From: Dromiciops gliroides
Lineage: Eukaryota > Chordata > Mammalia > Microbiotheria > Microbiotheriidae
Length of the DNA: 64,000 nucleotides
Reading direction: 5' to 3'
Assembly: GCF_019393635.1 (NCBI RefSeq)
Contig: NC_057861.1
Coordinates: forward strand, 379,651,815-379,715,814
The notes under the pieces were generated by a model. That model worked only from the letters and a program-made list of their open reading frames with translations, searched no databases and was not told the DNA's origin. Below are positions 56,950 through 57,821 of the stretch, piece by piece. Position 1 is the stretch's first letter. The number at the start of each line of letters is the position of its first letter. A program made the position numbers and the translations under genes.

Positions 56950-57216
56950 TCAGTTTAGTAGTTTCATATATACAGGAATTACAGACTAGGCTACATGAAC
57001 TCTATGAGACAGGAGTTGTTGTATAGGCTGGTCCTTTAGATTTTTCCTTGCATGATTTAAACCCAGGAAACAAGATATATATAAAGAATTCCCAGTAAAC
57101 CAGTGGAACCCAGCCTACTTGGGAAGGACCTTTTCAGGTATTATTAACAACTCCTACTGCCATTAAAATTGGTGAAAAAGACTTGGATTCATTGTTCTCA
57201 TGTAAAGTCTGCACCA
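56950..57216 (+). pseudogene. ERV integrase C-terminal domain
   Basis: Retroviral integrase inserts viral DNA into host DNA. The piece GPFQVLLTTPTAIKIG at about 57,130-57,165 is the hallmark C-terminal strand of gamma-type integrase. It is followed, after a frame change, by KTWIHCSHVKSAP (57,178-57,216), the equivalent of the conserved 'WIH-x-S-HVK' end. Upstream residues (LHDLNPGNKIYI-like) have an in-frame stop, so it is dead. Confidence 0.85.
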
Positions 57217-57528
57217 TTCATAGGTAAAGAGATTTCAGATAAAACTCTGGTAGACCCTAAAGAGCAAAAAACCCTAACAATAGCAGCTATTAAAGAAAAA
57301 AGAACCCCAACAGAGCCCAGGGACAATAGACAGTTCCCATTTGATAATCCTAATAATCAGTTATATGCCTTGGGACTCAGTCTTCATAAAGTATTGGGAG
57401 ATGGAAATTGCCTTTTTAGGGTTTTAAGGGATCAACTAGAAGGCTACCCTAGGAATCATCTCCGACACAGACAAGAATCTGCTTCTTATATGCTTATGCA
57501 TAGAACTGATTTTGAGTCTTACATTGAA
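57169..57528 (+). pseudogene. Integrase tail fused in frame to OTU-domain N-terminal half
   Basis: This is one open frame of 120 codons. Residues 5-16 are the integrase end (TWIHCSHVKSAP). Residues 17-55 are a Lys/Thr/Pro-rich linker. Residues 55-120 match the start of an OTU cysteine protease domain: ALGLSLHKV, then GDGNCLFRVLRDQLEG with the catalytic triad Asp/Cys motif (Cys at residue 81, codon 57,409-57,411), and RNHLRHRQ. The match is closest to vertebrate OTUD3, a deubiquitinase that cuts ubiquitin chains. A stop follows at 57,529. ATG at 57,169 is simply the first Met in the frame; translation would more likely have come from pol. Confidence 0.82.
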
Positions 57529-57821
57529 TGACTCTCCTTTTGAAGAATATGTTGATGAACCTGGTAGGTGGGGTGGCAATGATATGATTGTAGCTTTTGC
57601 TACATCACCAGATGAATGTAATCATTCATCAGTTGAATCAGCCCCTATGGCAAATCAGTGGCACAGACAAAGCTAATGCTAAAGAACTCCACATTTTCTA
57701 TCATGGAAAACATTATAACAGAAAAATCAATGACAATTTGAAAAGCCCTGCCACTTTGGCGTGCAGAGAATTGGGGAACCAGTTAAAACAATGTGGTATA
57801 CCCCAAATTCTAGCAATTTAA
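57529..57821 (+). pseudogene. OTU-domain C-terminal half, frameshifted
   Basis: The domain continues in two other frames. About 57,530-57,605 has an N-D-x-I-V-A-F-A block after an acidic stretch. 57,597-57,821 has VIIHQLNQPLWQISGT and ELHIFYHGKHYN, the latter containing the expected catalytic His region, then a short non-OTU end and a stop. These blocks and their order match the OTUD3 OTU domain. Two frame changes mean this copy cannot make the protein. No OTUD3 sequence outside the OTU domain is seen. Confidence 0.82.

Follow-up and report, generated by a model that had tools for sequence, protein, structure and literature searches.

How does a ubiquitin protease domain come to lie behind the end of a retroviral integrase in a marsupial genome? 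The question is raised by a locus in Dromiciops gliroides (assembly GCF_019393635.1, contig NC_057861.1), within a stretch of 64,000 nucleotides (positions 379,651,815 to 379,715,814 of the forward strand) that we call the window. An earlier note, made by a model from the sequence alone, had proposed that a retrovirus captured a cellular OTU deubiquitinase domain here. We consider it probable that a class I retrovirus captured the mRNA of the host deubiquitinase OTUD3, carried its catalytic domain fused to Pol, and kept it as a protein.

An OTUD3 segment in frame with an integrase end

The features that bear on the fusion are listed below.

56,970-57,216, plus strand: C-terminal remnant of a gamma-type (class I) retroviral integrase (from Pfam MLVIN_C, the structure 2m9u, the reading frames, and TWIHCSHVKSAP by eye)
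57,202-57,258, plus strand: junction zone between integrase end and OTUD3 (tblastn with koala OTUD3 reaches 57,202)
57,259-57,354, plus strand: apparent OTUD3 N-terminal region, koala residues ~23-54 (ungapped and gapped shuffle tests)
57,355-57,528, plus strand: OTU domain, first part (phmmer to 4bou, E 2.8e-20), with the catalytic Cys codon (human C76) at 57,409-57,411
57,527-57,601, plus strand: OTU domain, middle part, in another frame and with a three-residue loss relative to OTUD3 (tblastn collinearity, alignment)
57,603-57,758, plus strand: OTU domain, last part (phmmer to 4bou, E 2.4e-16), with the catalytic His codon (human H182) at 57,711-57,713
57,759-57,821, plus strand: 20 codons unlike OTUD3 (shuffle test), then the stop TAA at 57,819-57,821

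The retroviral part is recognised through the piece 57,099-57,224, which matches Pfam MLVIN_C at E 2.8e-6 and 27.3 bits, under the cut-off of 29.2, and the solved integrase C-terminal domain 2m9u at E 3.8e-5; none of the other integrase pieces examined matched an integrase. By eye the remnant is interrupted by one stop and some three frame changes, and no pol can be recognised by eye immediately upstream of ~56,970. The gamma-type integrase end thus stands as the earlier note had described it; the span given there begins at 56,950, and the remnant is seen, by eye, only from ~56,970, and is itself broken. A repeat at 56,092-56,537, just upstream of the truncated integrase, recurs inverted at 30,114-30,561 (63%) and may mark whatever cut away the 5' part.

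The stop-to-stop frame 57,148-57,531 (127 amino acids) contains both TWIHCSHVKSAP, the last integrase block, and the OTU motif GDGNCLFR. The OTU segment is in the sense orientation and shares its frame with the integrase end, and the single open frame from one to the other that the earlier note had reported is confirmed. Among solved structures the piece 57,148-57,528 matches OTUD3 (4bou) at E 2.8e-20, with OTUD5 as the next protein at only 0.21, and for the piece 57,594-57,818 OTUD3 is the sole match at E 2.4e-16; OTUD3 is the closest relative, as proposed. The middle piece (57,440-57,673) is weak by itself (E 0.15), and tblastn places 57,527-57,601 collinear with OTUD3. The Pfam OTU model on its own scores below its cut-off (21.6 versus 23.3 bits), with no Pfam match to the other two pieces, so it is the match to OTUD3 that identifies the domain. 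The rest of the domain, with the catalytic His region, does follow after two frame changes, near 57,527 and 57,602. Against OTUD3 there are five length changes, three of them of whole codons within pieces and two frame-shifting; the last part of the domain carries two gaps in the alignment, of one and two residues.

Both the catalytic Cys and the catalytic His are kept, at the positions of C76 and H182 in what we take to be the numbering of human OTUD3. At the third position of the triad the HYD of OTUD3 is HYN here; Asn serves at this position in some OTUs. In this copy the position of OTUD3 K129 is occupied by E, beside the three-residue loss, and the His loop is one residue shorter than the R178YGE loop of OTUD3. 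The reported positions of R178YGE (PMC3705208) and Cys76 (PMC10566363) agree with the human numbering used.

The OTUD3 segment spans approximately koala residues 23-196 and ends before the UBA half. The 20 codons that follow do not resemble the C-termini of three marsupial OTUD3s (shuffle p 0.47-0.89), and the C-terminal half with the UBA, searched for with the C-terminal halves of three marsupial proteins, has no convincing match in the window (best E 0.22, elsewhere). The segment is therefore a domain of OTUD3 and not the whole protein. The earlier note had held that only the OTU domain is present; the UBA half is indeed absent, and the N-terminal stretch of OTUD3 is present as well.

That stretch had been taken as a neutral linker of 39 residues. 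It is in frame as described, and most of it looks like the N-terminal sequence of OTUD3. The 32 residues before NQLYALGL, placed without gaps on koala OTUD3, have 8 identities (p 5e-5, 20,000 shuffles), the best of a koala range of 5e-5 to 0.003 over seven lengths in a test run on six species. The same ungapped test gives 1e-4 for antechinus, 5e-4 for opossum, 0.038 for gelada, 0.16 for platypus and 0.089 for sea turtle, and it favours OTUD3s with an N-terminus of equal length. With gaps allowed p is 2e-4 for koala, 6e-4 for antechinus, 0.001-0.002 for two opossums, 8e-4 for the orthologue P0066 and 0.01-0.04 for seven named non-marsupials, a weaker marsupial contrast than in the ungapped test. 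Within the junction zone VKSAP resembles VKSRP, koala OTUD3 residues 7-11 (tblastn). The likeness may be due to chance, or to a short match at the point where reverse transcriptase switched template.

OTUD3 is a multi-exon gene. Since the segment runs through about 170 of its codons, the donor would have been a spliced mRNA or a retrocopy.

Divergence from OTUD3 and the question of a processed pseudogene

An intronless-looking segment of OTUD3, frameshifted, at one locus and with no other copy shown, is also what would be expected of a processed pseudogene, that is, a retrocopy made by the machinery of a long interspersed nuclear element that landed by chance at the integrase end of a dead provirus. 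The marks by which such an origin would be known, a target-site duplication and a poly-A remnant of its own, had been named beforehand. There is no run of six or more A in 57,300-58,000, nor between 57,302 and 58,238; the nearest downstream is A9 at 58,239, 480 bp past the OTUD3 match. Comparison of the flanks 57,060-57,375 and 57,735-58,010 gives a single 8-base repeat, against 2.5 expected, and no longer one. The segment is thus not bordered by poly-A, and its flanks share no more of a target-site repeat than chance would give. Retrocopies as a rule keep the 3' end of the message. Here the 5' part is kept, the 3' half is absent and the stop lies inside the gene, the reverse of the usual 5' truncation. 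The sense and frame that the segment shares with the integrase end likewise tell against a chance landing.

The pattern of substitution also speaks to this. Over 135 core columns compared with koala OTUD3 there are 44 differences (67% identity) and no stops. Neutral decay of the core would be expected to give ~2.1-2.7 stops, with a probability of 0.06-0.12 of none, and changes as conservative as those in the core are rare under neutrality (P at most 0.007, the pieces being aligned by similarity, with a slight lean towards conservative pairs). Over 167 columns there are 68 differences and 3.7 stops expected (P 0.016 and 0.012). The joint pattern, no stop together with conservative change, never arose in two neutral settings of 1000 runs each; its frequency did not exceed 0.0005 in any of 12 further settings of 2000 runs. 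The divergence from OTUD3 is protein-like and unlike neutral decay, which argues against a chance processed pseudogene. We regard that origin as quite unlikely.

Protein-like divergence would be found equally in a domesticated host gene that combines an integrase tail with an OTU. Such a gene is very improbable here, as the frames are broken in both the integrase and the OTU parts, and no similar protein was found among those of ~70-222 or 421-1339 residues. These searches used the 127-residue first piece; there were 7 candidates and no match in the shorter range, and 210 candidates and no match in the longer (~421-1339 residues, with words and score taken from residues 1-127). Proteins of ~223-420 residues were not searched with the window piece, and the search with human OTUD3, in its best 120 of 1004 matches, may hide a viral relative. 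Collections of viral contigs gave no relative in any scan. Contigs of prokaryote genomes gave one 15-residue match, in a metagenome-assembled genome of Chlamydiia, which we take as an ordinary OTU motif.

Retroviral capture is accordingly the best-supported reading of the locus. It is consistent with an intronless segment in frame with the integrase end, with the lack of the 3' half, of poly-A and of a target-site repeat, and with protein-like divergence.

The rest of the provirus and the donor

Further features lie downstream of the OTU stop.

57,822-59,505, plus strand: ~1.7 kb between OTU and long terminal repeat (LTR), with no recognisable env or other protein (Pfam scan)
59,506-59,519, plus strand: polypurine tract A8G6, directly 5' of the LTR (run count)
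59,522-60,202, plus strand: putative 3' LTR, TG...CA, with AATAAA at 60,017 (sequence features, blastn)
60,344-60,984, plus strand: second, related LTR-like copy, TGTGGTAAAATG...GGCCCCACA, with AATAAA at 60,812, 141 bp downstream of the first

The A8G6 tract is the sole run of at least six A followed by at least five G on either strand of the 64 kb, with 0.0 expected from 50 base shuffles. From orientation and distance we infer that the OTU and the LTR belong to one provirus. A search of the window by blastn with the LTR gave no 5' LTR; gag and reverse transcriptase had no window-wide search. The first LTR and the second copy are 67% alike over 295 columns, and the second may be a solo LTR or an older relative; a stretch at 15,536-15,601 aligns with this second copy over 69 columns (74%).

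An element with the order integrase, GPY/F motif and OTU is already known in Ginger1, a DNA transposon that uses as its transposase a Gypsy-like integrase ending in an OTU domain (PMC2836005), and this equal order is what recommends it as an explanation. The OTU here is OTUD3 down to the N-terminus, the integrase is of the murine leukaemia virus (MLV) type, and a purine tract and LTR follow. Ginger1 elements are tabled from hydra, sea hare, lancelet and aphid (PMC2836005). An identity with Ginger1 is scarcely credible given the OTUD3 match, the MLV-type integrase, and the purine tract and LTR.

None of the 34 plus-strand frames of at least 20 amino acids between OTU and LTR has an env or other retroviral Pfam match, shorter frames and read-through lying outside the scan; three matches were at chance level (E 0.076-0.33). 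Possibly the OTU took the place of env, which is what happened with nectin3 in the crocodilian endogenous retrovirus CrocERV31; alternatively, env may be too decayed to recognise. The region 57,837-57,998, just past the OTU stop, has a pyrimidine-rich stretch ending in CTACAG that by eye resembles a splice acceptor, and after CTACAG a frame of 53 residues with no Pfam relatives. This could mark an env message.

The absence of env behind the OTU is also what would be seen if the segment were a captured passenger, useless to the virus, in a defective transducing genome that had lost env in the manner of those carrying retroviral oncogenes. The replacement of env on capture of nectin3 is reported for CrocERV31 (PMC4299795). 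The protein-like divergence over 135-167 codons suggests selection after capture, and because of this substitution pattern we consider a mere passenger the less likely outcome, indeed an unlikely one.

The captured mRNA was probably that of a marsupial OTUD3, an assignment that is supported but not firm. Orthologues were drawn from the best 120 of 1004 matches to human OTUD3 (proteins of ~219-696 residues). The motif DKAN is present in all four named marsupial OTUD3s and in 0 of 103 other readable orthologues, 13 of the 120 being unreadable there. By summed alignment score within the same 120, koala ranks first (504), followed by antechinus (501), P0066 (489) and two opossums (488 each). The earlier note had proposed a phylogeny against OTUD3 orthologues. 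In a tree of 15 orthologues and the endogenous retrovirus (ERV) copy, with the three pieces as separate partitions and with hare, yak, emydura and gharial left out, the ERV falls within the marsupials (support 88), with koala as its neighbour (79) and a very long branch of its own (1.34). The approximately unbiased test, among six placements that did not include turtle, rejects the eutherian placement (0.021) and barely the monotreme one (0.049). The grouping with marsupials is thus recovered; the Shimodaira-Hasegawa (SH) and Kishino-Hasegawa (KH) tests leave the other placements standing.

A possible viral deubiquitinase and its relatives

How might the capture have occurred? A gammaretrovirus-like class I virus, probably of marsupials, would have recombined with host OTUD3 mRNA, its reverse transcriptase changing template where the integrase gene ends. 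By koala numbering, OTUD3 residues ~23-196, comprising the N-terminal stretch and the whole OTU without the UBA half, would have become an in-frame C-terminal extension of Pol. The viral lineage would have kept and changed the OTU as a protein, and this copy would then have entered the germ line and decayed. Sharing its frame with the integrase end, the OTU would most likely be produced as the final portion of Pol, at the level of Gag-Pol, and carried in the particle. Early in infection it would then probably take ubiquitin off host sensors, restriction factors or viral proteins.

Host OTUD3 is reported to cleave Lys6 and Lys11 chains in vitro, and changing its His loop R178YGE lowers activity, on Lys11 more than on Lys6 (PMC3705208). 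According to a review it targets Lys63 chains on MAVS, RIG-I and MDA5, damping the defence against RNA viruses, and its activity depends on acetylation of Lys129 (PMC10566363). The role of the viral domain was likely to remove ubiquitin in the infected cell to the benefit of the virus. A more specific picture is tentative, and we would sooner doubt than assert it: a lineage of marsupial retroviruses with a virion-delivered deubiquitinase at the end of Pol, shutting off ubiquitin-dependent sensing or restriction at entry. Such an enzyme might act outside the acetylation switch, as the position of K129 is not lysine, and with another chain preference, given the shorter His loop.

A number of observations weigh against capture and retention of a functional enzyme. 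The arrangement of integrase and OTU is known here from one locus. Two of the five length changes relative to OTUD3 shift the frame, and the whole-codon gaps are not independent evidence because a gap inside one frame is of whole codons by construction. In the core columns the lack of stops carries little weight by itself (P 0.06-0.12), and the neutral simulations were run without donor codons, so that they give no true ratio of nonsynonymous to synonymous change and test selection indirectly. The same pattern could have come from selection that acted on a diverged host copy of OTUD3 before it was captured. With K129 replaced by E and Asn in the triad, enzymatic activity is not certain from the sequence. 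As to the donor, P0066 lacks DKAN and yet ranks third of the 120 by score, above the opossums (489 versus 488), and with gaps allowed its N-terminus fits as well as that of koala (score 27 each). The placements differ by only ~1.5 log-likelihood units, and all six survive SH and KH. Within the provirus, the 1.7 kb between OTU and LTR show no recognisable protein, and as the 5' end is missing, gag, most of pol and a 5' LTR cannot tie the OTU to the LTR. Finally, the activity of OTUD3 need not favour a retrovirus, because of its role with cGAS and because retroviral DNA is itself a cGAS ligand. OTUD3 is reported to strengthen cGAS, and so the defence against DNA viruses (PMC10566363).

With host OTUD3 the copy shares a catalytic OTU in which Cys and His are kept, and an alignable N-terminal stretch; it differs in lacking the UBA half, in three in-frame losses, in HYN, in the change of K129 to E, and in a 20-residue tail of its own. 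Viruses of other groups also code for OTU proteases, among them the arteriviruses. To our knowledge neither the arterivirus nor the nairovirus OTUs are derived from OTUD3, whereas the donor here is clearly OTUD3. The nairovirus enzymes, likewise virus-coded, are reported to strip ubiquitin or ISG15 (PMC7518590, PMC6343935). Ginger1 is alike in having an integrase-type enzyme followed by an OTU, and unlike in being a DNA transposon, where the present element has a copy of OTUD3; an OTU is already known both there and in Helitron transposons (PMC2836005).

The closest parallels are in crocodilian ERVs, from which the capture of host genes is already known. There host mRNA is reported within the ERV, coding for protein and with signs of purifying selection, as KIT-ligand in CrocERV29 and nectin3 in CrocERV31 (Chong et al. 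2014, PMC4299795). Those captures are of a ligand and an adhesion protein, in contrast to a ubiquitin protease domain fused to the integrase end, and nectin3 of CrocERV31 is described at six insertions in one species, compared with one locus for the OTU (PMC4299795). Among marsupials, MEGrv 1-3 are gamma-like class I ERVs of Australian species, compared here by their description only, and the main text of that study contains none of the terms 'OTU', 'ubiquitin', 'accessory' and 'host gene' (PMC11334065). The study covers 19 marsupial genomes and eight ERV clades (PMC11334065). No retrovirus with an OTU was found among the matches listed in the open literature; Repbase and most subscription papers lay outside that scope.

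The uptake of host genes by retroviruses is known mostly for growth genes, and few ERVs carry other host genes. If the capture is real, the accessory functions of retroviruses would gain a new class in the ubiquitin protease, and the OTU strategy of nairoviruses would have an independent parallel. One could then test which ubiquitin-dependent defence pressed on marsupial retroviruses. The choice of OTUD3 is telling either way, as the host enzyme is reported to damp MAVS and RIG-I signalling and to support cGAS.

Scans for bacterial promoters, Rfam families and tRNAs gave nothing of use. Elsewhere in the window, copies of a repeat are present at 52,705-52,855, 53,340-53,490, 53,759-53,841 and 61,591-61,741, in both orientations and 68-87% alike. 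We take them to be CORE-SINE-like (of the short interspersed nuclear element class), which would fit a marsupial genome. A tandem repeat lies at 41,658-41,870, with 1.8 copies of a 118-bp unit and 84% matches.
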